This document shows, in pieces, positions 6,156 to 60,410 of a stretch of DNA of 64,000 nt. This DNA comes from Loxodes magnus (Eukaryota > Ciliophora > Karyorelictea > Loxodida > Loxodidae). The stretch covers positions 310,001 to 374,000 of the forward strand of contig CAMPDV010000010.1 in the NCBI GenBank assembly GCA_946699065.1, written 5' to 3'. Under the pieces are notes generated by a model. The model did no database searches, was not told the DNA's origin, and saw only the letters and a program-made list of their open reading frames with translations. Position numbers and translations under genes: made by a program. Each line of letters starts with the position of its first letter. Position 1 is the stretch's first letter.

Positions 6156-9100
6156 TCAAGCTTAGTACTTTTTTCTCTATTTAACTTTAAAATGTTTGGA
6201 TTTTTTATTTTAAAATTGCTTTTTATTATATTAAGGTATTTTTTATTCTTCTCCACTTTCATGAATTTAATCAAATATTTTTTAATTTTCTCTTTGACTT
6301 TCTATACGTGTAGTGTTTTGAAAATTGATGTTAACTTATTGCTATGAATTATCTTGCTTATTTAAATCCTACTATTATTACTAATCAGCCTCTTATTGCT
6401 ATTGGATTTTATCTTACTTTGCTTTTTTACAAGATGTATACAAATCTATTAAAGTAACTATAAGTGATATAACCAAAGCTATTATTGTAAAAAGACTACA
6501 TGTAACTGTGATCACTACTCCTAATGTTTATCTATCTTTATCACTATCTTATATATCACGGTTGTTAGCATGGAAATAGAAATTAAAGAAATAAATAAAA
6601 ATAAGTATCATTTCTCCAATTATCTCTATAGCATTCAGTAAAAAATTTTCAAAAGGTTTGAAATAAACTATATAAAAGAACCAAACTAAACAATGGAAGA
6701 GATATAAAATTATTTAAGCTACTTATACCTCTACTAAAACAATAGCTGCAAACGAAACAAAAAGTCTTCTTACCAGAAAGAAAGTTTAGTAAAGTGCTTA
6801 CATTTAGTTATTCTATTTCTTTTAGTCAAAGTAAACTATATACTTTTCTTTTATTTGCTTCATCTATTTCTCTATACTTTCCTCTTTTGCTTCCTTAAAT
6901 TTAGTTTTCAAACTGAAATATTTTTTAAGTACTTAAAAGCTATGAAATATACAAACTATTTGAATAGTCTAAATATAAAAACTTACAAGTACTAAAATAG
7001 CTAGGAATGAGTTTAAGCCTGAATAGAAATCAGAAACAGTAAAGTGGTAAAGTTGTAACATAACAGCATTATTTATTTAAAGAGCTTTGATACAGTAAAT
7101 CACTGAAACGTAGTTTCTATTAGTAAATTTAGTTCTTATTTTTTCTATCTTAGTCTTGCAGCATTTTAGTCCAATAATTTTAAGCAGCAAATCAATAAAA
7201 AGTAGAACGAATAATAGGAAAAGAGCTTCAAATAGATTAGATAATAAAGTGTAACTTTAGTAATTCAAGTAAACATAAATTTATTTATCTATTTTAAGTT
7301 TGCTAGAGTGGAGATTTAAACCTAAAATATTATTATTTCTTAGTCCATTTTATTCTTAATCATTATCAAAATTTTCAAAATAATATGCATTAAGAACTTC
7401 AACTCGCTAAACATCAACAAATCCATTCATAAGCATGAGTTGAGTAATAAAAATACCTTATAAAAATTTTGAAGAACTTGCTGAATACTTAGAGTTACTA
7501 AAAAGATTAGCTAATACAGAACTTATACTTACAAATGCACTTGTGTAAACAAGAGCAGCAGATAAATTTGAAGAATTTTGAAGAAATTTTTTTTCTGTGT
7601 TAGAAATTTAAAAATCATAAAGACTATTTATTATATCATTAAACTAATCTTAATTTTATTAGTATTATCCATCTTCTTAAGTTTAGTTATCTTCCAAAGA
7701 ATTACTTTTAAGACCTTTTGTACAGCTTACATTATTTCAAAAAAATGTATCTTCACATTCAAAACATTTTTTTCCATCTTTTTCACATTCTAAGCAACTT
7801 TCTGGCTTATGATTGCATTTAAGGCAAGTTTAATTCTAGCTTTAATAAGTACCATTAGGGCAATTTTAAAAGCATTTACCATCAAAAAGAAGAAAAGATT
7901 CTTAACATTTAGAACATATTTCTCCTTCTAACTAGCATTCTGAACAATTATCAATCTTTTAATTGCATTTATAGCAGGTTTAATTTTAAGTAAAATAAGT
8001 CAAGTTTTAAGAGCAATTAGCAACACACTCATCATTAAGCATGGAAAAATATATTAAGCATTTTATACAATTTTTACCATCTAAGTCACATTTTGCACAT
8101 TTATCAAATTTCTCTTCACATCTAAGGCAAGTCTAATTATATTAGAAATAAGATTAATCAGGACATCTGGCAACACACTTATCTTCAAGTAAAAGATAAG
8201 GATCTTAGCATTTAGTACAGATATTTCCATCATTATTGCAATTATTACAATTATCTATACTTATATTGCATTAAAAGCAAGTTTAGTTATAAACAAAATA
8301 ACTATTATCAGAAGAACAGCTTTCTACACATTTCCCATCAAGTAAAAGATAAGGAAACTAGCATTATAGGCATATCTATCCTTCATTATCGCAATATAAA
8401 CAATTTTATATCTTTTAGTTGCATTTTTAACAAACTTAGTCTTTCTCAAAATAAGTTTAGTCTGGACAACTTGAAACACACTTATCTTCAAGTAAAAGAT
8501 AAGGATCTTAGCATTTTGTGCAAATATCTCCTTCTAAATCACATTCTAAGCAATTTTTTATCTTTTAATCACATTTAGTGCAAGTTTCATTTTAAACAAA
8601 ATAAGTATTGTTAGGACAACTATCAACGCATTAATTATCAAGATGAAGATAGGATTCTTAGCATTAAATACAAATATCTCCTTATTAGGTGCAGTTTTAA
8701 CAGAAAGGATTAGTTTAGTTACAGTAATCACATTTTCCATCGTTATCTTAATCTTATTAATTACCTGGACAATTAGGTAAACACTCTTTTTCCTTCGAAA
8801 TTTTTAGTGAGCATAGACATTAATCTCCTTTAAATACTCAACCATAATAGCATTATAAGCAATTACTTGTCTGAGTGTCATAACATTTGAAGCAGTAATC
8901 TCAGCATTAAATTATTTTAATTGAAGTAAAACCTTAAAATTAATAGCTTAAGATAAGAGTAAAATCATTTACTGTTAAGTATTAATTTTTATAATATCTA
9001 GCTGAATACATCTATCCAATAAAATTATAAGATTTGATATAGCTTCCTTAGTAAATAAGATCATTTGAAGTAAAAGTTATTCATTCAAGATAAGTTTGCT

Positions 9101-9557
9101 AATCAATATAGAAGATATTATTAGCTCTAGAATGAGTCAAAGTAAAAAAAGCTTGCAGTTAGTTATTAAGAGAAAATCCTAGAAAGACTCAAATATCACA
9201 AATATAATCAGTTAAAATTTTTGCATTAGAATTATAATATTTTCTTAGTCTCACTTAAAATTTAGTTTATGTACTTTGGGTTTAATATATGGAAAACTCT
9301 AGATATATTGAATTACTTTAATATAATTATAAAAAGATAGAGCTCTACTAAGTTTAGTCGAATTTAATCCAAGTTGTAATACTAAATTAAGTTTGTGTCT
9401 AAGGATTAAAATTATAAGCTGAAAATTTTTTTGAAGGAGCTAATTATTACCTAGATTAAAATTAAGGAGAGTTGGGAATAATTATATCAAAGAAATCTAG
9501 TTGAGCCAAAGTAAATTAGATTAGCTAAAGACTTAACATCAGTATTGCTATTTTCAT
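6156..9557 (-). CDS. Cys-rich GFR/furin-repeat multi-pass membrane protein, paralogue A (1133 aa)
   Basis: With TAA/TAG=Gln and TGA=Trp the frame is unbroken from ATG at 9557 to TGA at 6156. The start gives a signal peptide (MKIAILMLSLQLIQFTLA). Next comes a beta-rich region with FSITTWIKFD, as in LamG/concanavalin-like domains. From about residue 217 follow tandem units of the type NCxxCxxxGxxCxxCxxPxLLLxxxC, typical of growth-factor-receptor/furin-like repeats of ciliate surface proteins. The last third has several hydrophobic helices (LFEALFLLFVLLFIDLLLKI is one), then a Gln/Lys-rich tail, presumably cytosolic. The Trp codon in TTWIKFD is TGG (9369-9371), while the paralogue at 16971 uses TGA. 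The C-terminal half is strongly diverged from that paralogue although part of the repeat region is nearly identical. Role inferred: cell-surface receptor or adhesion protein; ligand unknown. Confidence 0.85.
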
Positions 9558-10500
9558 TTTATTATTAAATAAATAGTTATAAAGCTATTTAAATATATCT
9601 ATTTAGCAATTTATTTTAATTATTTCATTCATTTATATCCTTCAAACTTACTCTTTCTCAATTAATGAATGTTTATACCTCTCTAAGCATAATTAAAATT
9701 TTTGTTTCTATAAAATCCTTATTTTAACTAAAAGTAACTAAAATTATTTTTCCTTAATAATAAATTAATTATTTCTTTAATTTTATTTCTTAGATAACAA
9801 TAAAATTCCTAATCATTTGTAGCATAGAAATCACTGTAATCTAAATTAAAATACCTCTTTATTTTAAATGCTTGGAAACAACAAAATAGATTGCCTTATA
9901 TCAATAATTTTCTTAATTTGTGAACTAAAAGCATAATATTTTATTAATTATTAATAGAGATTTACTTATTTAATTTGTACCTTTTAATTTATTTTATTAG
10001 CTATCCCAGTTTCTTTTTATCATAAATTAACTTAAATCTAGAATTTATTTAATTGGTATATTATGTATCTCGTTGTCTTTTGCTGGAAATTAAGTTTATT
10101 CCCTGTAAAATTATTCTAAGATAAGCAGCTTATTTATCAAATGAACCAAATGTTCTTTATTATTCTTAGCAATAAGAAAGAATTAAAGATTTGCTTTAAA
10201 GTTGTTTAACAGCTAAAATTTATTAGCCAATCAATTATTTTTAAATCTACATCTTAAAGAGGAAAAAAAGTGTAGTTAAATACATAAATATGGATTAGAT
10301 ATAAACAGATATTAATAGGTTTAAGATCTAATATTCTAACGAAGGCATTTAACACAATAGTCATTAGATATATTTTCTAGTTACAGATACCAGGTTGAAA
10401 GTAAATATTATTGGTTTAAAAACTTAAATTTTAGAAATAATTTTAGTTATATTTCTTCATAGATTACCTATAACCAAAATATCTAAAAAGCAAATTTTAA
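9558..10500. other. 5' flank of the minus-strand Cys-rich gene
   Basis: AT-rich upstream region. It does not match the upstream region of the paralogue at 16971, so the two genes share coding sequence but not promoters. No clear promoter motif can be named. Confidence 0.45.
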
Positions 10501-10508
10501 AGTTATTA

Positions 10509-10980
10509 TGAAATATACCAAAAAAGTGAAAGCCTCATCTATATTTAGAAAATTTGGAAGCAAGCTTGTTAGAGGATAAAATATTAAAATTGAGTTTGAA
10601 AGTATAGCATGAATTGAGAAATAAGCAAATTTTGCCATTTTACTAAAAGAAGTTATAAAATCAATTGTTCCTACTAAGATAATTTGTCAATGATCTTTTA
10701 ATCTTACTAATTAATCATCACCAAAAGTAGAATCGAAGAAAAAATGACTAGAAGGGAATAAAATTTATAAGAAACTAAAATTAAAAGACACTACATGGAA
10801 ATTAAATAATACAAAAGATCAAATGCTTAATCATGTTAAGCTAATCCATTGCTTTTATTTCTATTAGATTTGTTGGTAGCAAGTACTGCTTGAAGATTTT
10901 ACTTCTTTATGCAATTTTAATTTAATAAATTAAATTCTTAAATGAAATAAATAAAATTAAGAAAGTCTAGATCACATTTA
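10509..10980 (+). CDS. Possible hypothetical protein, MKYTKKVKASSIF start
   Basis: From ATG at about 10509 a frame of some 150 codons has protein-like composition, with TGA again at plausible Trp sites (ESIAWIEKQ, CQWSF, KKKWLEG) beside one TGG (DTTWKLNN). There is no recognisable domain. A second plus frame upstream and across the same DNA (TDTRLKVNIIGLKTQILEI) is also protein-like, so the true frame and start are unsure; it may be the remains of a longer gene. Confidence 0.25.
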
Positions 10981-10984
10981 CATT

Positions 10985-11710
10985 TGAATTTTTTAATTTT
11001 AATTTAGATCAAAATTAAAATTTAGCTGCAGACAATTTTCCGATAATTTAAAAAGAATTTTTTTTTTAAAATATCATACTGCGAGGCAAATATTTAGATA
11101 GCGCTTAACTTTTAAGCATCTTTCAAACTTAATATTAAATCTTAATAACCCAATTGTTTGATTTTATCTAACTATTATATATAAAATAATTTAAATTTTT
11201 TTACTAAATTTTCAATAAAAAAATTAATTTAATCCTTATAATTTAGTAAGAAATGCAAATGCTTTTATTTTTTATATTTTTAATACTAAAATCTTAACTA
11301 AATAAAGGTGCCAACTTAAAAAAATCTGTGTCTAGATCTTATCTATTTTTTCAACTATATTTATTATATTTATTTATAATATTTTCAATTATTCATAATT
11401 TCGATTCAGTTTGATAGAATGAATATTTCTAGCAGCTATAAAAATGAGTCTAATTAAATAGAAGAAAACTATTATTTTTTTATTGTTGCTTTAGAGAAAA
11501 AAGTATTGAAATTAATTATATTTCTTCTCATATAAGTTAATTTAAAATGTTTGAAATAAAATAATATTTTAATCTGATTTTAAGCATCCTGACTATAAAA
11601 GTTCTTATATAAATAAATTAAATTTTAGCAAAAAGTTATTAATTATTATTTTATTTATGCTTTGAAAATTTTAAAGCAAATCCATTTTAATAAACTTTAA
11701 AGACTGGATA
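10985..11710. other. AT-rich intergenic stretch
   Basis: Nothing recognisable; it ends at the target duplication of the retroelement that follows. Confidence 0.45.
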
Positions 11711-11723
11711 TATCATCCACTCT

Positions 11724-12527
11724 TTAAAAAAAATGGAATAATCTATTCGCCTTTCCAAAAACCAAATTAAGAACGCAAAAAGGAAAGCTGCGAAACTAAT
11801 GCAGAAACAATAACAAGAAGAAGATAAATCAAGTTCCTCATCTGAAGGAAAAGTTATAATTGGAACAATAGAGACGAATCCAGTAAAAGTACAAAAATAA
11901 TCAGAAATTTAAATATAAATTGACTAAATGAAAACAATAATACAAAATTATTAGGAATTAATTTACAATCAAGGGGAAAAATAAGAGAACTAATGAATAC
12001 TATCGAAGATTAAAACAACGAGCTACTAATAATAAGACGACAATTGATTTAAAATAATTTAGTCACAGAATAGTAACTATATGAATAATCTCAATCGAAT
12101 TTTAAGCAAGAACAAAATATGATTATTGAAAAAGTTTCTACATAAACAAACATCCAAGAAAAATAGAATGACGAAAAGATTAATATAGAATTACTCCAAA
12201 CAATCGATTAACTTGAAAAAAAAGTATTTCTGAAGAGATTCAAGAAAAGACCAATCAAAAATTGCTATTATTGCAAATCAAAGTGACACCTATTACAAAA
12301 TTGCGATCAGTGAAGATAAATTTAAATGAAAGAACAACAAAGAACGTTAAGAATGCTTAGCAGACTCTGAATCACCGAAAACGGGAATTTACAAGAAGAA
12401 GATATTCGTATAAAAGACAGAAGATTCTCAGTGGTTCCATTCGCGCTAAAAAAATGGTAGCAAAAACCTGGTTGAAAATCCAGGGAATGCTAAACTTTAA
12501 TTACTTTTAGTTTACTATTATTATTAT
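11724..12527 (+). mobile_element. ORF1-only non-LTR retroelement (rep3), copy 1, with 13-bp target duplication
   Basis: The 804-bp element lies between perfect 13-bp repeats TATCATCCACTCT (11711-11723 and 12528-12540). It starts with an A-run and ATGGAATAATC and ends with a CTGG/CCAG hairpin followed by TTA repeats, as expected for a LINE-mobilised element. It encodes a basic N-terminus (IRLSKNQIKNAKRKAAK), an acidic Ser stretch, a coiled-coil-like middle and a CCHC knuckle (CYYCKSKWHLLQNC, the W being TGA). There is no endonuclease or reverse transcriptase, so it must borrow them. The reading frame is not continuous over its whole length in this copy. Confidence 0.85.
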
Positions 12528-12584
12528 TATCATCCACTCTAGCAATTTTTTAGACTTAAGATTTAGAAGGTTTTTTAAAATAAT

Positions 12585-12840
12585 ATAATATTAAATATTT
12601 AATAAAGTTGAATCAGATTTAATTAAAGGAACTTTTAGTTTTAATTTTCCTAATTGTTTATATATATTCTTTGTTTATTAATAATCTTAGTAACTCTACA
12701 TCTAAAAGATTTTTATAGTTTAACTTAATTTTATTTATAAAATAGAAAACATTAAAAGCAATAGAAATAATTCTTAATCTTATATATATAAGTTCTAATT
12801 GAAGTATTTTATTTATTTAGTCTAGTCAATATTTTTAATA
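12585..12840 (+). repeat. Dispersed repeat (rep5), uninterrupted copy
   Basis: This stretch (GGAACTTTTAGTTTTAATTT, then AATCTTAGTAACTCTAC and TTAATCTTATATATATAAG) recurs at 22168-22250 plus 22990-23130. There the two halves are split by a retroelement, so this copy is the empty-site reference. Nature unknown; it may be the duplicated flank of an older element. Confidence 0.6.
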
Positions 12841-13510
12841 AGAATAAGAAGGTAAAATTAATTAAATAAAGATAACTTTATTTTTTATTTGGTAAATAGA
12901 TTTGACTTTCATTCGAGAAATTCCTTTAAATGTATTTTTAAAGGTTTTATTTAGAGGGACTTTTGTTATAAATATAACTTAGAAAATTTATAAATGATTA
13001 AGAAAAAGTATTTGTTTATTACTTTAAGAAATCATAATATTTTAGATTAAGCAAATTAAAATCAACCTTATCTTACTATATTCAATTCTATCTAATTATA
13101 AAAAAATTTTAATTTGCATATTTACTTTAAATGAAATATACTCTTAGATATGGCTTTCAACTTAGTATTATGAGAAGATGGAATAATTAATTTCTTATTT
13201 TCAGTTAGGTTTATCACTTTCTTTGCTGGCAAGTATTATAATTTTTTATTTTGCTTCACTTTTTTTATGAAATAAACAATTTCATACCTTATTTAATGAA
13301 GAAAACTTCACTAAAAATTGCTAAAAATGGTTATTTCAATTATCTTCTGATAATATTCATAATCTTAGTAATTATGACAGTTTGGTGCTCTCGATATTTT
13401 GCTATATGCATGAACTAATAAGGAACTATATATCTAAATAAAGTAAACCTTTGGTAGATGTTTTAAAAGAGCTCTAGGTATTTATTAATGTTAATTAAAG
13501 AAAAAAAAGA
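12841..13510. other. AT-rich intergenic stretch
   Basis: No gene, RNA or repeat that I can support. Confidence 0.4.
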
Positions 13511-13515
13511 GAAAT

Positions 13516-13960
13516 ATGGCAAAAAAATAAAATAAAAATAAAATAGACGAATCATTAAAGCCAAATTACTAATAATTTATGAAATGAAGCTCGTTTTAAA
13601 AATTAGATGTGGATTCATATAATCTTTATTATATGATAGCAATATTAAAAAGCATAAGATGCATTCAAAGATATAAAAACTCAAAGTAAAAGTAATAAAA
13701 TGAGGAAAGCTCAAAGAAATAGATAATAGAAATCAATTTTTTATTATTATAAGAGAGTTTATTAAGAGAAATGGATCAAATTTAACAAATTGTATATTCT
13801 AGATCTTATGAAAGAAGGAAATGAATAAGCTTAGAAAATTTACCTTGAAACGGTCAAATTGTAATTCTATCCAGGATTTTATTAACAATTATTTAACTGG
13901 CATAGACCATAAAGTTCCAATTAAAGGAGCATTCATGCGAATTTAATATTATTATATAAA
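13516..13960 (+). CDS. Possible small hypothetical protein, MAKKQNKNKIDESL start
   Basis: ATG at 13516 opens a frame of about 145 codons with protein-like composition. TGA falls at sites that read well as Trp (FMKWSSFQ, RRKWISLENLPWNG). The N-terminus is basic and hydrophilic; the C-terminal part has a hydrophobic segment (IVILSRILLTIIQLA) that could be membrane-associated. No family recognised. It ends close to the structured repeat at 13994, and the stop is not obvious, so the 3' end is approximate. Confidence 0.35.
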
Positions 13961-13993
13961 ATAATTAAGAATATTTATTATAAGATATATAAA

Positions 13994-14398
13994 ATGGATG
14001 TCGGTCGCGACAGCCAAACAAGAAAAATCTGGTGCAGTGTAAACTGCAATGCGAGTAATCTCGCACTAGATGCACCACGGGGAAGGGTGGATAAGCACCG
14101 ATGAGACATACCTAACTTACCCCGAGGGTTCTCTCTAGCACTATGAAACTTTGAATGACGGGCCTTCTAATTACCGACTTAATAACTATCTCTTATTTGG
14201 ACCTTATTAAAGTGTACTGAAGCATTTGACTCAAGAATTAAGAATAATTTTTATCAAGAAGATTCCCCATTTGGAGAAGTTAACATGACTCATCGGACTT
14301 CTAGAATTTTAACAAGAAACATAAGAACATTTTCTTAATATTAAATATTTATATTGAAAGAGCTGCGCGCCAATAAAATGCTACGAGCTCAATAATCA
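13994..14398 (+). repeat. Structured ~400-bp repeat (rep2), copy a
   Basis: It begins ATGGATGTCGG with a TGTCG/CGACA hairpin. Next come GGTGCA and TGCACC, pairing around a GCGAG/CTCGC hairpin, and near the 3' end a GAGCT/AGCTC stem. The copy at 28.3 kb changes both sides of several of these stems, which argues for a folded RNA. It is richer in G+C than its surroundings and has no credible ORF. A TTTA-rich tail follows directly, as at the 3' end of many SINEs and LINEs. Confidence 0.75.
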
Positions 14399-15758
14399 TT
14401 TTAATTATTTATTTATTTATATAATTATTTAATTATTTACTTTTTTTAATTTATTAATTTATTTATTAGACTATTTATTTAATTATATACTTATTTAATA
14501 ATTTATTTACTTTTTTTAACTATTTAGATTATTTATATATTTTTTTATTAATTAAATTTTTTTTTTTGCATACTTTTTTTAAATTATTTATTTATATATT
14601 TTTTTAAATTTAGTTATTTATTTGAATATCTTTTTTATAATTTATTTTTTTATTTTTTTAAAATTTATTTATTTCTTTTTTTAACTAATTAGATTATTTA
14701 TTGATTTGCATATTTTGTTTTAAATTATTTTTTTTATTTTTTTTTATTTATTAATTTTATTATATATTTATTAACTTTTTTGTTTAAATTTATTTATAAA
14801 TTAATTTATTATTTACTTTTTTTAATTAATTAATTAATAAAATTATTTATTTTATTTACTTATTTTTAAATTTTTTTACTTTTTTTTTAAAAATTAATTA
14901 ATTAGTTAATTAATTAATTTATTTATTATTTACTTTTTTTAATTAATTAGCTAATTTATTTATTTATTTTGTCTTTTATTTAGATTTTTATTTATTTATT
15001 TACTTTTTTATATTATTTATTTACTTATTTATTTAGATATTTATTTATTATTTTTTTTAAATTAGATAATTTATTTAAATATTTATTTATTTATTTATTC
15101 ATTTTATTTTTTAACTAATTAATTAATTTATATATTTATTTTTTAATTAATTAATTAATTTATCTAATTATTTTTATTTTTATTTTTATTTTTTTATTTA
15201 TTTATGTATTTTTAATTAATTATTAGATCGATTATTTATTTACTTTTATTAGATAATTAATTTAGTCATTTATTTGCATATTTTGTTTATTATTTTAAAT
15301 TTATTTCGTTATATAATTATTTTAATTAATTAATTAATTTTTCTTTTTTATTTGATTATTTCTTTTTTTTTCTTTTTTAATTAATTAATTAATTAAATTA
15401 TTTTTTTATTTACTTATTTATTTAGATATTTATATATTATTTAATTAATTTATTAATTAATTTATTATTTACTTTTTTTAATTAATTAGCTAATTTATTT
15501 ATTTTGATTTTTTTTATTTATTGCTTTATTTATTATTTATTATTTATTATTTACTTTTTTTAATTTTTTAATTTTTTAATTTATTTTTTAATTTTTAATT
15601 TTTTTTTTAAATTAATTTATTTCTTTATTTTTTATTTTATTTATTCAATTTTTTTAATTAATTTCTTTATTAACTTATTATTTACTTTTTTTAGTTAATT
15701 AGTATATTTATTTATTTACTTTTTTTAAATTATTATTATTTTTTAAATTAATTTATAG
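14398..15758 (+). repeat. 1.36-kb TTTA-rich low-complexity tract
   Basis: Almost pure A+T made of TTTATTTA, AATTAATT and poly-T motifs, with only scattered G and C. It continues directly from the tail of the structured repeat, so it is best read as a greatly expanded retroelement tail. The related copy at 28.3 kb has only about 25 bp of such tail. No coding potential. Confidence 0.8.
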
Positions 15759-16970
15759 AAATTTTATAAAGTGCTTCTTGGCCTTTATTAATAATATATA
15801 GAATTAAATATAATTTATTAATTTAAATTTAATAAATAATAAATATTAGATTCAGTTTTATATAGTTAATCATATAGAAACACTTGGATAAAATAAGCTA
15901 ATAAATGAAGAATTAATAATCATTTACTAAATAAAGTTAATTGTTGTGCTGAATGAAACTATGATGTGCTTAGTTTTCAATTGAATATTAGATTATTTCT
16001 ACTTGCACTATATCACTCTTTATAATTTTTTTACTTAAATGAAAGAAATATTTTAGTATAAGCATTTTTTAGATAAAAGAAAATATTTATTGAAAAACCA
16101 AAAAAAAATTACAATTTCACTAAAATGTCTACTTATTGATGTTCAAAACTCATGAGTAAAAGATTGTTAATTTTATTTTTATAACTAAAAGAATGTAATA
16201 TCCATAATTGGGTTATTTTCTTTTGAGTGATGTAGTATTTTATCTTTTATTTTAAAATAAATAGAAATCTTTTTTATCTCCACACACTAAATTTTTTAAC
16301 TGGCATAATTTATTCTTAGTAAATTATTCTAACTCTTCAGGAATGAATATACATTAAATATCTCTATATCATAATAACTTCTTCCTTATTTATTTGTCAT
16401 ATTCAAATTATATTTATAAAAATCAAACTTATTTATGATTTCTTAATTTCTTTTTTAATTTTTATCAAAAATTAATGAAGATTTTTTAAAATCAGCATCT
16501 TATAATATTTTATTGTATTACACAATGCTTAAATCTAAGGTTCATAGTGCTAATTATGTTCGAAGGTATTTAATGCTAAGCATTAGATAAATTTGATGCT
16601 AAGCTATTTTTACTATTTTCGGCTTAATTCTAATTTAGATTTTATATTGTTGTATTTTATTAAACTTCTTAGTTAAATATTAAGAAATAGCTTTAAAGCT
16701 TTATTTTAGTAAGCATTTGGAACTATTATCTCTTTCAGTAGATATACTAAACTAAAATTAAAATAATGTTTATAATTTATTTATCTTGCAAAAAATGAAA
16801 TAATCTATAAAGCTTATACTTTTCTAAGATTAAAAAATATTTAAATATATAAAATAAAAATAGTTAATTTCTGAAGATTTCCTTCTTTATAAATTAAAAT
16901 CCAATTTTTAAATTAAAATCTTCATTGCTTTATCTTCACTAAATATCAAATCATTTAAAAATAAAATAAA
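15759..16970. other. 5' flank of the plus-strand Cys-rich gene
   Basis: AT-rich DNA with no recognised element. The last 50 bp before the ATG at 16971 are A-rich, as at the other gene starts in this window. Confidence 0.45.
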
Positions 16971-19900
16971 ATGAAAATAGCAGTACTGATGTTAAGTCTT
17001 TAGCTAATCTAATTTACTTTGGCTCAACTAGATTTCTTTGATATAATTATTCCCAACTCTCCTAAATTTTAATCTAGGTAATAATTAGCTCCTTCACAAA
17101 AATTTTCAGCTTATAATTTTAATCCTTAGACACAAACTCAATTTAGTATTACAGCTTGAATTAAATTCGACTAAACTTAGTAGAACGGAGTCTTTTTATA
17201 ATTATGACAAAGTAATTCAATTCTGGAGTTTTCCATGTTATAAACTCAAAGTACATAAACTAAATTTTAAGTGAGACTAAGAAAATATTAGGATTCCTGA
17301 TCAACTATTGTAGCTGATTATATTTATGATATTTGAGTCTTTCTAGGATTTTCTCTTAATAACTAACTGCAAGCTTTTTTTACTTTAACACACTCTAAAG
17401 TTAATAATATCTTCCATAGTGATTAGCAAACTTATCTTGAATGAATAAATTTTACTTCAAATGATCTTATTTACTAAGGAACCTTCTATTAATAAGTTAA
17501 TTTTATTGGATAGATGTATTCAGCTAGATATTATAAAAATTCATACTTAACAGTAAATGATTTTACTCTTATCTTAAGCTATTAATTTTAAGGTTTTACT
17601 TCAATTAAAATAATTTAATGCTGAGATTACTGCTTCAAATGTTATGACACTCAGACAAGTAATTGCTTATAATGCTATTATGGTTGAGTATTTAAAGGAG
17701 ATTAATGCCTATGCTCATTAAAAATTTCGAAGGAAAAAGAGTGTTTACCTAATTGTCCAGGTAATTAATAAGATTAAGATAACGATGGAAAATGTGATTA
17801 CTGTAACTAAACTATTCCTTTCTGTTAAAACTGCACCTAATAAGGAGATATTTGTATTTAATGCTAAGAATCCTATCTTCATCTTGATAATTAATGCGTT
17901 GATAGTTGTCCTAACAATACTTATTTTGTTTAAAATGAAACTTGCACTAAATGTGATTAAAAGATAAAAAATTGCTTAGAATGTGATTTAGAAGGAGATA
18001 TTTGCACAAAATGCTAAGATCCTTATCTTTTACTTGAAGATTAATGTGTTTCAAGTTGTCCAGACTAAACTTATTTTGAGAAAGACTAAGTTTGTTAAAA
18101 ATGCAACTAAAAGATATAAAATTGTTTATATTGCGATAATGAAGGATAAATATGTCTATAATGCTAGTTTCCTTATCTTTTACTTGATGGAAAATGTGTA
18201 GAAAGCTGTTCTTCTGATAATAGTTATTTTGTTTATAACTAAACTTGCTTTTAATGCAATATAAGTATAGATAATTGTAATAATTGCAATAATGATGGAA
18301 ATATCTGTACTAAGTGCTAAGATCCTTACCTTTTACTTGAAGATAAGTGTGTTGCCAGATGTACTGATTAATCTTATTTCTAATATAATTAGACTTGCCT
18401 TAGATGTGAAGAAAGGATTGATAAATGTGAATAATGTGGTTTGACAGGAAATGACTGTAATAAATGTATAGAAGGATATTATTTATTAGATAACTCTTGT
18501 GTTTAGAGTTGCCCTTTTGATGAGTATTTTGTTTTAAATTAAGCATGCTATAAATGTGAATTAATAGCTGATAAATGCTTAAACTGTGATGCAAATGGAA
18601 GAGAATGCTTAAGATGTAAAGATGGTTATTATTTATTAGAAGGTTAATGTGTCTCAAATTGTTCTTTTGATGAAGGTTATTTTATTTAAAACTAAACTTG
18701 CTTTAAATGTAGCTAAAAGATAAATAATTGTTCATCATGTAATATTTAAGGAGATATCTGTAATAAGTGTTAGAAGCCATTTTTATTACTTGAGAATAAG
18801 TGCGTTGATAAATGTGATAAGGATGATAATTACTATGTGGATAATTTTACTTGCTTGAAATGGGAGTAGAATACTAAACAATACTAAAAAAACAAATCTG
18901 ATTATAATATAATAAATTATTAGTTTGAGTTTTAAGTGACTGATACAGAACAATTTTTTACTGATTTGACCAAATATATTTAATTTATATCTTAATATAT
19001 AGTATTTGCTTCAGCATAAAGTTATATTATTTTATAAAGCGTAGTTATATAGAACTGCTTCTAGGTATTCTGATTTGTAGCTTTTATTACTTAAATGATT
19101 ATGCTAAATGCCTATATCAATGTACCTAGACCTGATAATCTTAACAACTATTATTTCTAGAATTTTAAGTTAAAATTACCATTTGGACTTAATGTTGACT
19201 TTTTTGAAATATAATGAATCAACAATGAAGTTGAATAAAATATTTGAAAAATGCTTAAATATAATTCTAGTTTATTCCTAGCAAACTCACTTAATTCCAT
19301 TTTTATCATTTTATCTGCTTTAACTTTGAGTTTTATTTTTAGAATATTTAGCTATAGATTCAAAAGATCTTAAGTATTACAAAAGCTTCTAAATTTATAT
19401 TAATATGAAGTAGTGATAGGATTTTATTTAGGCTAATGTTTAAACTTGAATTTCGCTATTTTTATATAAATTTACAATTTAGATTTCAAATAAATGTTTA
19501 CCACTTTAAACTTGCTATTGACTTTCGTATTCATTGTAAGTTATCATATGCAGATAATTTAAATTCTAGCCATTTCATATTCTTTCAAAATAGTTTACGC
19601 TTATTTACTAAAATAATAATAAAGTGGAGAATAAGAAGAATAAGAAAAGATAAAAAATAAATTTAATCTTTTCTTCTAGGATTTCTAGCCTAATAAGTTA
19701 TCTCTCTATTATCCAGCATTTATTATTAGACGATTCTTCTTATCTTCCTTGCTTATACTACTTATCAATCATCCCAAAGCTTAAATAGTTCTAATGACTC
19801 TTACCTGCTTTTTATAAATCCTCTTTCTGATCTTTTACTAACCTTTTTAAAATATTAAAAGTAACTATTTTGAGTGCGTAGTAGAAACTTTTTTGATGTG

Positions 19901-20507
19901 CATTTATCTAACTAATTTTTATTTCAATGCATAAAAAGAAAAAATGCAATTGGAAGGAATTGGTAGCAAGTAGGTAAGTGAAGTAGGAGGTTTGATATTA
20001 TATGCATCTAGTATTTTTATTTTCATAGTGACAGTGGGAATGATAATATTGAATATAAGAAACTTTATTTAGTAATATAGAGAAAAAAGAAAAATATAAG
20101 CACAACCAATGAAGATGCCTAATATAACTAATGATATTTCTTAAACTTAATTACAAATAGAACATTCTTAAATAATTTCTTCTGAACTTAGAGAGCAGAA
20201 CGATTTAAACTTAACTATCTTTTAAGGAAATAAATCAAAAAGAACTAATTTAAAATAAAAAATACAAAATTTATATTTTAAGGAAGAAGAAAAATAAGAT
20301 GATTTAGTGCATCAATAGCAAATTAAAGCTTAAGACGCCGATATTAATGAAATTATTTAATAAATAAAATAAGAAATTTAAAATGAAAAATAAAATAAGA
20401 AAAATAAGCAGAGAAGAAGAAGGAATAAGAGTAAAGTGCATGAGGATAAAAAAGGAAAAAGAAAATATAAGGATAAAATAATGAAGGACACTTAAAAAAT
20501 ATTTTGA
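16971..20507 (+). CDS. Cys-rich GFR/furin-repeat multi-pass membrane protein, paralogue B (1178 aa)
   Basis: One unbroken frame of 1179 codons from ATG 16971 to TGA 20505-20507 when TAA/TAG=Gln and internal TGA=Trp. Signal peptide MKIAVLMLSLQLIQFTLA; concanavalin/LamG-like region (FSITAWIKFD, W=TGA at 17157-17159); Cys-rich repeats from residue 217 to about 630; then about eight hydrophobic segments, the last near residues 1010-1035 (LILYASSIFIFIVTVG); and a Gln/Lys/Arg-rich tail ending RRRRNKSKVHEDKKGKRKY. About ten Trp are TGA and only one is TGG. It faces away from paralogue A, 7.4 kb apart. Residues around 197-482 are encoded by DNA nearly identical to paralogue A, with abrupt divergence at about 18415. 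Inferred role: surface sensor or adhesion protein of the ciliate GFR-repeat class. Confidence 0.88.
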
Positions 20508-38440: not shown

Positions 38441-38481
38441 TAATATAATTAATTATCGTTTTCTCATAAAAAATCTTCAAC

Positions 38482-40950
38482 TCACTCACTCACATTCAAT
38501 CGCATCGATTTCCACTCTCTAGACTTCGAAGAACCACCTGCTTTTATGTCATATACATATATCACATTTGGTTATGATTTATAATCACTACTCCACATCC
38601 ATAAACTATTATTTACATATAGACTATTGTATCAGAAAGCAGCTACTGGATCATTAGGATATTAATTACCATCCCTTATTATGGCCTTAGTGTCAAACAC
38701 ACATGTTTACTTGAGCTTATTACCATTTTCCCAGATATATACACACTCATTCTCATTCACTCAGACACTTGCCAAACAAGATGCCGGCACTGGTAATTAT
38801 ATTTCATACTCCTAATACACATTCAACTCACTGTCATATGATGATATTCCACTTGATAACTGGTAAACATCAGCTAAATTTGAACTTTAAATTGAACCAC
38901 CTACTATCCAGACTCTCTAATATGATACTCAGATTCCATTAACAGCGATATAATCCTTATTACTCAACAAAGACCTAGATTCATTCTGTAAAATGTCATA
39001 AACCTCCAAAGAATTAATGTAATTATAATAATCATGAGATGATGCAGAATATGATAACGGATCCAGTCCTCCTAAAATATACACCAATCTATCATTGTCA
39101 TATCCCATTTATTTGATTGCTCTTGGCTAGATTAAATTGGCTGATTCTTTTATTACTGAACCACTACTAACACTACTTGAAGTGATCTATAAGATCTTGT
39201 CCAGATATGATTTAGTATTTCATCCTCCTACCTAGATTAATAGCTCATCAGTGATCTAATATGTCGATGAGGTGTTTGAATATATTGGAGACATCCCCGA
39301 TACCGTATTGTAACCACAGGAGTTATTAACGCTGTCCAACTTGTAAGATTATATCTTATTAGTTTTTGGGAATACTCTCCTATAAACTGTTATCCTTGAT
39401 GACTACTTATTTACTTTCTTAGCTAAACTTTATTTGTAACTTGGCTCATTTACTAGTTCACTCTAATTACTGACTTGAATTTGTTTAGTCTAAGATTTAG
39501 ACTATTCTTAAGAAAATGGTAGATCTTTTATTTATTGTTCTTTTGACTTAAGCTATTCAGAATGATTTTTATTATCGCTTTCCAATTAAATATTAGTAGA
39601 CTTTAAAACCTCTTACTCCTTCAATAGAATTCTCATCTACTCTTTTTAATTCAAGTTCTCTTATTATAGCTTGCTTAATTAGTTTTATAACTAAGTGATG
39701 GATTATTGACTAGTAGCAAGATTCTATTGAAGAATGCCGTTTTGTTGTTAAAGCTATTAAATCTCTTAATCATATTTGAGTTAAATAGCACGTAGTTGCT
39801 CTTCCTTATCCCTTATCTGCTATTGATACATAAACTGAGTTTATTAAATGACTTAAGAATTTTCCTATTTCATTCTTGCTAGCTAATCAGTTAGATCCTA
39901 AATTGTCTTATTCTGCCCAATTATTTAAGTATTTAGATAATTGACCTAATTAAAATAAAAGGAAACCTATTGTTCTAAGGAGGTGATTTGATTGTGATAT
40001 ACTTATTCTTTATTTTCGTACTATAGGTATAATTATTGAAAGTCTTGGTATAAACACTTTATTGCTAACTAAAGTTGCTTGATCTAGTTAGCTTAGTTCA
40101 TGTAACTCTAGTATACTTGGTTATGTTAGAGTTGTTGTATTAGATGAGTTGTAATTTAGTTCTAGAGTGCCTATATACTTAAATTCTCTTGACATACAAC
40201 AGAGGATGATTATGCTATACTCTAGAACTTATCCTAGATTGTTAACTCAAATTGATTCAACTGTCTCTTCTTATTTTCACATGAAACGATACTATCCTAA
40301 GAAATGTTAGAGATAGCATTAATCTAATTATCTATCACCTGATAGTAATCAGATGTATCTTTAAGTAAATTCAATTATTTCATTAGATGTAACCTTTAGT
40401 TATTAATCATCTTCTAACTAGCTTACTTGATACTCTACTTAATCAATTGCTAAACTTAAATCATATTAGCCATTCTCGATATCTACTACTAACTTAACTG
40501 TCTGTACCATTGATTCAATGTAGATATGTATTAGACCAGTCTCTAATTGATGGCTCTAAAGGTAGATTCTAAGTAACTCTTCATTTGCTAAACTGCTTCC
40601 TATGTAGTGATACATCTATGCCCTTGATGCGATACCTACTAGCATTGTACACAGATTCCTATGTTGTCCTATATACAATATAATGTTAATGAATACTATC
40701 TATGACTCTAGCAAATATACTAAAGATTGGTGGAGTTCTATATCTATTGATTAACTAAATTTATAATTGATAGTATCTCAATTGGTCTTTCAGTTATGAC
40801 GTTATGAGTATTACATTTGAAGTTTTTATGAACCTTATAAAATCCTTTCAAGCATTTTTCACAGAGAATACATCCACAGTCCAACTGCCTAGGTTTTTTC
40901 ATTTCTTAATTGAAGTCTTCTTCACATGTATCGCACTTAACCGCTGACAT
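38482..40950 (-). CDS. RING/B-box/coiled-coil protein with kelch repeats, left-arm copy (822 aa)
   Basis: ATG at 40950, TGA at 38482-38484, 823 codons in one frame under the reassigned code. The N-terminus KCDTCEEDF...PRQLDCGCILCEKC is a RING-type Cys cluster with Cys where a His is usual, and lies in the first 50 residues. A B-box and a Gln-rich coiled coil follow (MINNQRLHLMKQLNLLKDTS). The C-terminal half has kelch-like blades with Gly-Gly pairs and Trp (RVWIVGGSIQ, LNVYQEYEIQLPVP). Internal TGA codons (GI-W-VSYQ, SV-W-VNENE, AF-W-YNS) are conserved with the right copy, so they are sense. It resembles TRIM/RBCC E3 ligases, with kelch as substrate binder; ligase function is inferred. It diverges from the gene at 41107. 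Confidence 0.87.
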
Positions 40951-57355: not shown

Positions 57356-59656
57356 ATGTCAGAAGCCAAGTGTGAATTATGTAAAGAAGAATTTGACTAA
57401 GAGCTTAGAAAGCCTAGACAGTTGGACTGTGAATGCATTATCTGTGAGAAATGCATAAAAACGTTCTATAACCTCTATAATGAATTTAAATGCTGAAAGC
57501 ACAACATCACCACAACAAGACCAATCGAGTCATTACCTACTATGAATTTAGTTAGTCAATAGATATAGAACCCCACCAATCTTTAGGACATCTGCCCTAT
57601 TCATAGTTAATAGTTCTTAACTCTATATTGTATATAGGATAGTATAAGAATCTGTGTACAATGCTAGTAGGTATCGCATCAAGGGCATAGATGTATCACT
57701 ACATAGGAAGCAGTTTAGCAAATGAAGAGTTACTTAGAATCTACCTTTAGAGCCATCAATTAGAGACTGGTCTAATACATATCTACATTGAATCAATGGT
57801 ACAGACAGTTAAATTAGTAGTAGATATCCAGAATAGCTAATATGGTTTAAGTATAGCTGTAGGTCAAGTAGAATATCTAGTAAGCATGTTAGGAGATGGT
57901 AAATGACTAGTAAAACTAAATAAAATAATAAATGCAATTAATTAAAGCTACATCTGATTACTATCAATAGATAGGAAGATAGGTTAATTCTATCTCCGAT
58001 ATCTCTTAGGACAGTATTGTTTTATGTTAGGATAAGAAGAGCTAATTGGATTAGCTTGACTTCACAATATAGGATAAGTTCTAGAGTATAGCATAAGCAT
58101 CTTCTGTTTTATGTAGTGAGAATTTAAGTCAATAGGCTCTCTAGAACTAAATCGTAACTCATCTAACGCATCATCTCTAGCCTAACCGAGTATACTAGAG
58201 TTACATGGACTAAGCCAACAAGATTAAGTAACTATAGTTAGCAATAAAGCGTTTATACTAAGATATGCAATAATAGATTCTTTAGTAAGAAAAGAAGCAA
58301 TAAGAGTATTAATAGTAGTTAAGGAATAAAGACTATTAACTTTAGGCTTAGTAGCTCAAATATGATTAAGACATCTAAGAACTGCAGTAATAAAAAGCCG
58401 AGCTTCAGAAAGGTATTACAGCTAGTTAACAATCTATGATTTAATTATAAGACTAATTATCTAAATTAGCATAAGAGAAAGTCAATTATTAAGAGTAGAT
58501 AAAGATTTGATCGAAGAAGTAAGAGAGTTTAAAATCTGATAATATGTAACTGGAAGCTATTAATAAGAACCATTCTGACTAGTTAAAATATTAAAGCTAG
58601 TAATTAAAAGATCTACAATAGTCTTTGGAATAATTCAAATCTTAAAGTTAATATATTCAAGTCAATAATTGGAGTGAGTTAGTGAGAGAGTCAAGCTACA
58701 AATACAGTCTAGCTAAGAGAGTAAATAAGGAGTCACCTAGGATAACTGTTTATAGGAGAGTATTCTTTCATTCCAATAAGATCTAGAGTTACAAGCTGGA
58801 CAACGTTAATATCTCCTGTGGTTACAATATGGTATCGGGGATGGTTCCAATATCTCTAAATCGATCATCTACATATTAGATCACTGATGATTTATTAATC
58901 TAGGTGGGAGGCAAAACTACTGCGACATATATGGACAAGATCTTATAGATTACTGCTAGCAGCGTTAGTAATAGTTCAGTAATAAAAGCATCGGCTTCGT
59001 TAATCTAGTCAAGAAATATTTCTTAAATGGGATATGACAATGATAGATTTGTGTATATTTTAGGAGGAGTGGATCCGCTATCATATTCTGCATCATCTCA
59101 TCCTTATTATAATTGCCTTAATTCTTTGGAGGTGTATGACAAGGTATAGAATGAATCTAGGTCTCTGTTGAGTAATAAAGATTATATACATCTTAATGGA
59201 ATCTGAGTATCATATTAGAGAGTGTGGATAATAGGTGGTCATATTTAAAGTTAAAATTTAACTGAGAATTACTAATATTCAAGTGGTATATCATCATATG
59301 ACAGTATGTTGAATGTGTATTAGGAGTATGGAATATAATTACCAGTGCCGGCAGCTAAATTGGTAAGTATCTGAATAAATGAGAATGAGTGCGCATATAT
59401 CTGGAACAGCAATAATAAGCTCAAGTAAACATGTGTGTTTGACACTAAGGCCATAATAAGGGATGGTAACAAATATCCTTACATATCAACAGCATCTGCT
59501 TTCTGATACAATGGTATCTTTGCAAATAATAGGATATGGATGTGGAGTAGTGCTTATCGAACATAGACTAATGTGATGTATTCATATGACACAAAAGCAA
59601 GTAATTAAGGCAAAAAGAGAGAGTGGACTTCGATGCAATTGAGTGTGAGTGAGTGA
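57356..59656 (+). CDS. RING/B-box/coiled-coil protein with kelch repeats, right-arm copy (766 aa)
   Basis: ATG 57356 to TGA 59654-59656, 767 codons in one frame with TAA/TAG=Gln and TGA=Trp. RING-type cluster KCELCKEEF...PRQLDCECIICEKC, then KC-W-KHN with TGA at 57494-57496 where the left copy has Asn-Thr. B-box CPIHSQQFLTLYCIQD then ICVQC and SHQGH. Gln-rich coiled coil (QQNQIKQQMQLIKATSDYYQ). Kelch-like C-terminus (DRFVYILGGVDPLSYS; NSLEVYDKVQNES; RVWIIGGHIQ). It is 56 residues shorter than the left copy, chiefly in the middle. Both copies keep open frames and a divergent neighbour, so both may be functional. Likely a TRIM-like ubiquitin ligase; this is inferred from domain order. Confidence 0.87.
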
Positions 59657-60410
59657 GTTGAGTCTCTCTAATGAGGAGACATTAAATAATTATATTATAA
59701 GTATTAAAAGTATTAAAGTATTTATTTAAAGTATTGATATAATTAAGTAGGTATATATTTTATATATTGAGTATTTACAGAATATGAATAGAGTGTGAGT
59801 AGAGTATAAAAGAGTTTATGTAGACTTTTTACAGACTTTAAATAGAGTATAAATAGTAAATTAAGAGTATAATAGAGTATGAGTAGAGTACATTTAAATT
59901 ATACTTAAAGTATATACAAAGTATATACAAAGTATATTAATAGCGTGAATAGAGAGTGTATGGAATTTGAATAGCGTATAAACTAGAGTGAATAAATAAA
60001 ATGGGAGATAAAGTGAATGATAATTATAATTATAATTATAATTATAATAAGTATATATAGTTAAGTAAACATAAGTAAGAATAGAGTGAGTATAGAGTAC
60101 GAATAATATGAATGAGTAAATGTTTAGAGGAGTAGAATTTGTGTGCTGGAGTGGGTGAGTATATTTAAGAAATTTGAAAGTTAAAGTTAAGTAAGGATAT
60201 TGTGAAATAGTTGGTGATAGATGGTAAATAAGAAAGTAAGACTTGAGAAAATAAGACCTGAGAAAATAAGACTTGAGAAGTGTGAGTGAGAGTATGAGTA
60301 TTATAGGAAGTAGTATATTATGAAATATATTAAAAGAGTAAGATGAGTAGATTGAGGGAAGTGACGAGATTTTTCGAGGAAGAAAGGCAATAAAGAAGTG
60401 AAAAGTGGTA
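59657..60410. other. Low-complexity purine-rich block downstream of the kelch gene
   Basis: Degenerate GAGTATA/GAGTAGA-type repeats, a short AATTAT array (60027-60051) and AAGTATTAAAGTATT units; counterpart of the pyrimidine-rich block in the left arm. No gene. Confidence 0.6.

Follow-up and report, generated by a model that had tools for sequence, protein, structure and literature searches.

Whether TGA can be read as an amino acid inside genes that also end in TGA is the question raised by two paralogous genes, A and B, at positions 6156-20507 of a 64,000-nucleotide stretch of the karyorelict ciliate Loxodes magnus (contig CAMPDV010000010.1, positions 310,001 to 374,000; hereafter the window). 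At residue 63, A carries TGG and B carries TGA, and an earlier note on this DNA took that exchange, together with TGA codons shared by a pair of kelch genes in the same window, as proof that TGA is a sense codon. Judged from sequence, this L. magnus genome, most likely the macronuclear one, almost certainly uses NCBI table 27, in which TAA and TAG encode Gln while TGA encodes Trp internally and serves as stop at the end of genes. One exchange and the shared kelch codons are not sufficient by themselves to prove that TGA encodes Trp, so it is the conserved genes (myosin, dynein, papain-type and HSP90) that settle the question. The features of the locus on which it turns are as follows.

6156..9557, minus strand: paralogue A, 1133 codons read from 9557 to 6159, among them 5 in-frame TGA and 2 TGG; terminal TGA at 6158-6156.
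16971..20507, plus strand: paralogue B, 1178 codons from the ATG at 16971 to 20504, among them 10 internal TGA and 1 TGG; terminal TGA at 20505-20507.
9369..9371, minus strand: residue 63 of A, the W of TTWIKFD encoded by TGG, as placed by the A/B alignment.
17157..17159, plus strand: residue 63 of B, the W of TAWIKFD encoded by TGA, opposite the TGG of A.

The two codons do occupy the same position in the two genes, as described earlier, with A on the minus and B on the plus strand, and the length then given for B (1179 codons with about ten TGA) was right to within one codon. A and B are 57% identical across 1114 aligned codons with TGA read as X, and are therefore old paralogues rather than fresh copies. 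Eleven columns of their alignment contain TGA: four have it in both genes, one pairs it with TGG, and in six it faces some other codon (TAT twice, TTA twice, AAT and TCT). Taken by itself, the A/B exchange is weak evidence.

Conserved genes elsewhere in the assembly allow TGA to be compared with codons of established identity. In a myosin pair (L051/L052, 72% identical), three of four TGA columns have a TGG partner, with the exchange running in both directions. One dynein pair (L071/L073, 89%) has four TGA columns, three facing TGG and one TGA in both copies, and a second (L072/L074, 80%) has five, one facing TGG and four TGA in both. Over these three pairs TGG is the partner in seven of the eight discordant TGA columns, a count made without L074/L075 (22% identity, misaligned) and the other dynein cross-pairs; if all nine one-step neighbours, TGG among them, were equally likely as partners, seven in eight would arise with a probability of approximately 1.5 in a million (hand calculation). 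We also searched the PDB with seven of these loci (L051, L052 and L071-L075), replacing each TGA by X, and read the alignments printed, 2 to 5 in number. Of 21 TGA codons, 12 stand opposite Trp in most or all of them, one more faces a mixture of Trp and Tyr, and no Cys was seen opposite a TGA in any printed alignment. The tally excludes L053, a myosin-like locus with four TGA for which no PDB match was obtained, and makes no use of L054 and L055. Finally, the papain-type motif CGSCWAF, searched with its Trp codon left open, occurs at 53 places, many of them near-identical copies, with TGG at 50, TGA at two and TAT at one (control, 0). The myosin, dynein and papain-type genes and the PDB alignments thus bear out the earlier claim that TGA is a sense codon for Trp.

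The family to which A and B belong adds conservation to this evidence. A search with B returned 88 matching stretches in the genome, a lower bound in which a gene may account for several stretches; the best 30 loci were cut out and, combined with A and B and with repeats removed, gave 27 distinct genes. Column 63 is present in 26 of these, with TGA in 14, TGG in 12 and nothing else. A tree built without column 63 requires four TGA/TGG changes (5-95% of bootstraps, 4-4), one of which depends on L050, a long branch whose placement is unsure. Four other TGA codons of B are listed here, three of which are nearly invariant in the family.

17334..17336, plus strand: TGA, residue 122 of B; also TGA in A (9191-9189) and in 26 of the 26 family genes having the column.
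17442..17444, plus strand: residue 158 of B (TGA); 26 of 27 family genes have TGA in this column.
17622..17624, plus strand: TGA, residue 218 of B; among the 27 family genes TGA in 21, TAA in 5 and TTA in 1.
17685..17687, plus strand: residue 239 of B (TGA); 26 of 27 family genes have TGA in this column.

Each family gene contains 5 to 13 TGA codons, and 19 of the 30 fetched loci align to B in a single frame over at least 1000 codons. The column-63 counts, the four changes on the tree and the near-invariant TGA columns together argue for an exchange that is above chance and recurrent across the family, with TGA otherwise conserved.

The second pair in the window, two B-box/kelch genes on opposite strands, bears on conservation only.

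38482..40950, minus strand: B-box/kelch copy K-; first TGA of its end pair at 38484-38482.
38931-38929 (GI-W-VSYQ), 38763-38761 (SV-W-VNENE) and 38634-38632 (AF-W-YNS), minus strand: TGA codons of K- common to both copies.
57356..59656, plus strand: B-box/kelch copy K+; first TGA of its end pair at 59654-59656.
59204-59206, 59372-59374 and 59504-59506, plus strand: TGA codons of K+ common to both copies.

The kelch alignment has eight TGA columns, five with TGA in both copies and three with TGA against another codon. The three positions previously cited are indeed shared, but both copies carry TGA there. As no column pairs TGA with TGG, we dropped the kelch pair as evidence of exchange; on its codons it is evidence of TGA conservation.

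TGA also terminates genes in this genome. The C-terminal MEEVD of HSP90 is followed by TGA in eight of eight loci, although four of these lie in one tandem array and the loci are therefore not all independent, and no TGA occurs within 300 codons before the stop. A and B likewise have no TGA in their last 400 and more codons; depletion of coding TGA near the stop is a feature of table 27. Both kelch genes, by contrast, end in VSE-TGA-VE(S/D)xx-TGA (59654-59674, plus strand; 38464-38484, minus strand), so that two TGA stand in frame at a distance of six codons. Among the few gene ends inspected, TGA was the only terminator seen, and neither TAA nor TAG appeared in that role. Since TGA occurs both at internal Trp positions and directly after MEEVD, it has both meanings in the genome. 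TAA and TAG are sense codons (112 in frame in B, 91 TAA and 21 TAG) and TGA is both Trp and terminator, so that no codon is a dedicated stop, which agrees with what had been proposed. Because the assembly uses a context-dependent code, gene models must treat TGA both as Trp and as stop.

The last 517 codons of HSP90 (L056-L063) contain no TGA and four TGG in all eight loci, and the loci of the B family (L021-L050) have 5 to 13 TGA; highly expressed genes may avoid TGA. Two eRF1-like genes on contig C196 (L065 and L066) encode AQNIKS instead of the usual TASNIKS, placing Ala, in an alignment made by eye, at what we take to be the position of Ser70 in human eRF1.

A genome-wide pattern for the tRNA-Trp anticodon arm, accepting CCA and UCA equally, gave 77 matches: 72 on contig C148, three on C110, one on C7736 and one on C50, the last a tRNA-Arg. 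All Trp matches have the anticodon CCA, and 72 of the 77 combine it with a T27/C43 mismatch, which leaves an anticodon stem of 4 base pairs (bp). A tandem array at C148:157310-173047 holds 66 of these 72, spaced mostly 241 bases apart. Six of seven array units compared are identical, and the seventh, which lies at the end of the array and is cut short by it, agrees at 177 of 241 bases; six T follow the tRNA in all seven copies read. The T arm is weak in the two C110 copies that were drawn (L001 and L003).

A tRNA-Trp with a UCA anticodon, which the earlier note suggested looking for, did not appear among the 77 matches nor with a second, TCA-anticodon pattern run on the genome; the tRNA-Trp(CCA) with a 4-bp stem was found in its place. 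It is conceivable that a cognate tRNA-Trp(UCA), for example one imported from mitochondria, decodes UGA and was missed by a search consisting of two patterns. We consider this unlikely, as the pattern open to either anticodon gave only CCA among its Trp matches, and the seven matches to the TCA pattern appear by eye to be a tRNA-Leu-derived repeat, ARAGORN calling no tRNA in the three of the seven that were fetched.

For TAA and TAG, Gln codons under table 27, tRNA-Gln-like arms with a TTA anticodon gave 449 pattern matches against three in the control, and among 100 tRNA-Gln-like matches listed 80 have TTA and 20 TTG. Nineteen such TTA matches lie at C214:232606-237603 with a spacing of approximately 275 bases; tRNA arrays are therefore not confined to Trp. 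Two other patterns for tRNA-Gln suppressors were rejected as mostly at chance level (40 matches against 25 in the control, and 7 against 6); the two matches fetched from them, L076 and L077, look Lys- and Arg-like by eye, and ARAGORN calls no tRNA in either.

Several observations weigh against reading internal TGA as Trp through a relaxed tRNA-Trp(CCA). TGG is the partner in one of seven discordant A/B columns and in none of the three discordant kelch columns, and when the window pairs are pooled with the myosin and dynein pairs the proportion falls to 8 of 18. TGG is never present in the family at TGA columns 122, 158 and 239. Eight of the 21 TGA codons compared with PDB structures do not stand opposite Trp, although for two of the eight a paralogue in the same genome carries TGG at that position. 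The three C110 copies of tRNA-Trp(CCA), moreover, have an anticodon stem of 5 bp.

In the Condylostoma code (table 28) any of the three codons is able to end a protein. That code resembles the one found here, where the same three triplets also occur as sense codons within genes, and all 64 codons can be sense in both. It is nevertheless very improbable for L. magnus: TGA ends HSP90 at eight of eight loci as well as A and B, it is the only terminator seen among the few ends, with neither TAA nor TAG in that position, and UGA is given as the only Loxodes stop in passages of PMC11441545. Still less credible is the idea that the genes are decaying paralogues, or relics of transposons, in which TGA acts as a premature stop. 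A and B do come from a much-copied family (88 matching stretches), and the L. magnus assembly is described as repeat-rich in a portion of PMC11441545. Decay, however, does not fit 19 of 30 loci that keep one frame with B over at least 1000 codons, TGA columns kept as in 26 of 26 genes at column 122, or TGA codons that match Trp positions of dynein and myosin genes and exchange there with TGG in seven of eight discordant columns. That TGA is a stop suppressed by occasional readthrough, or encodes selenocysteine, is just as implausible, for although TGA does terminate HSP90 and yeast UGA readthrough inserts mostly Trp (Swart et al. 2016, PMC4967479, in the part consulted), 5 to 13 TGA per family gene and TGA at conserved Trp of dynein motors would hardly be served by inefficient readthrough, and no Cys faces TGA in the printed PDB alignments. 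The conserved-gene evidence thus rules out the pseudogene, readthrough and selenocysteine readings.

Under table 27, third-base G/A transitions in Trp codons would swap TGG and TGA silently. The weakened tRNA-Trp(CCA) with its 4-bp stem would read UGA as a near-cognate codon and outcompete eRF1 within the message, and near the poly(A) tail eRF1 would win, so that UGA terminates. The 66-copy array of the 4-bp form and the few 5-bp copies might further represent a division of labour, the dose of relaxed tRNA outcompeting eRF1 at internal UGA while genes such as HSP90 keep UGG; we offer this as a speculative and rather doubtful suggestion. The array may help to test how tRNA dose governs the balance of reading and stopping. 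No description of it was found in the literature searched, and PMC11441545 contains no word beginning with 'tRNA' in its main text, but other papers and supplements may mention it.

UGA encodes Trp in Blepharisma. The karyorelict nuclear code, table 27, was reportedly described by Seah et al. in 2022, as cited in PMC11441545, and the mechanism based on a 4-bp anticodon stem in tRNA-Trp(CCA) is said to have been described by Kachale et al. in 2023. Passages of PMC11441545 state that table 27 applies to Loxodes: UGA is its only stop and, at a sufficient distance from the poly(A) tail, is also read as Trp. Swart et al. 2016 (PMC4967479) assign the karyorelict code to Parduczia and propose translation as the default, with termination near transcript ends. 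Extracts of PMC13092985 report the 4-bp-stem tRNA-Trp(CCA) in Loxodes and Blepharisma, with which a part of PMC12005148 agrees, and state that C. magnum has no tRNA-Trp(CCA) other than the 4-bp form. Both the unusual code, including its use in Loxodes, and the tRNA mechanism have thus been published already, and our results are an independent confirmation of the context-dependent karyorelict code in this assembly that, as discovery, adds little.

The code found here does not differ from the karyorelict table in the features tested: in both, TAA and TAG are sense codons, and TGA means Trp within genes but stop where they end. The 4-bp-stem mechanism is matched by a tRNA-Trp(CCA) with positions 27 and 43 unpaired and by the absence of a UCA tRNA from both patterns; the difference is that 72 such matches, 66 of them in a tandem array, occur here beside a few with 27/43 paired. 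Unlike C. magnum, with the 4-bp form only, this genome thus also has 5-bp-stem copies of tRNA-Trp(CCA). Blepharisma shares UGA as Trp and the 4-bp stem, whereas here TAA and TAG are also sense and TGA is also a stop.

A and B belong to a large multigene family whose products are cysteine-rich and probably membrane-bound. A contains cysteine-rich furin-like repeats with a Furin-like_2 score under its cut-off, and Furin-like_2 is above the cut-off in B. The N-terminal part of A has a weak laminin-G-like match; the laminin-G matches (16 bits, E 0.014 and 0.011; cut-off 27.6 bits) are a hint only, and none is reported for that part once TGA is read as X. Scans of the whole window gave a GC content of 13 to 30% and found neither a tRNA nor an Rfam match in its 64 kb. 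The divergent A/B pair is found again as a unit in at least two other places, at C227:82757-96727 and at C10:158215-171783, the latter on the same contig as the window pair and approximately 158 kb distant; the A copy of that same-contig unit (L032) has TGA where A carries TGG.
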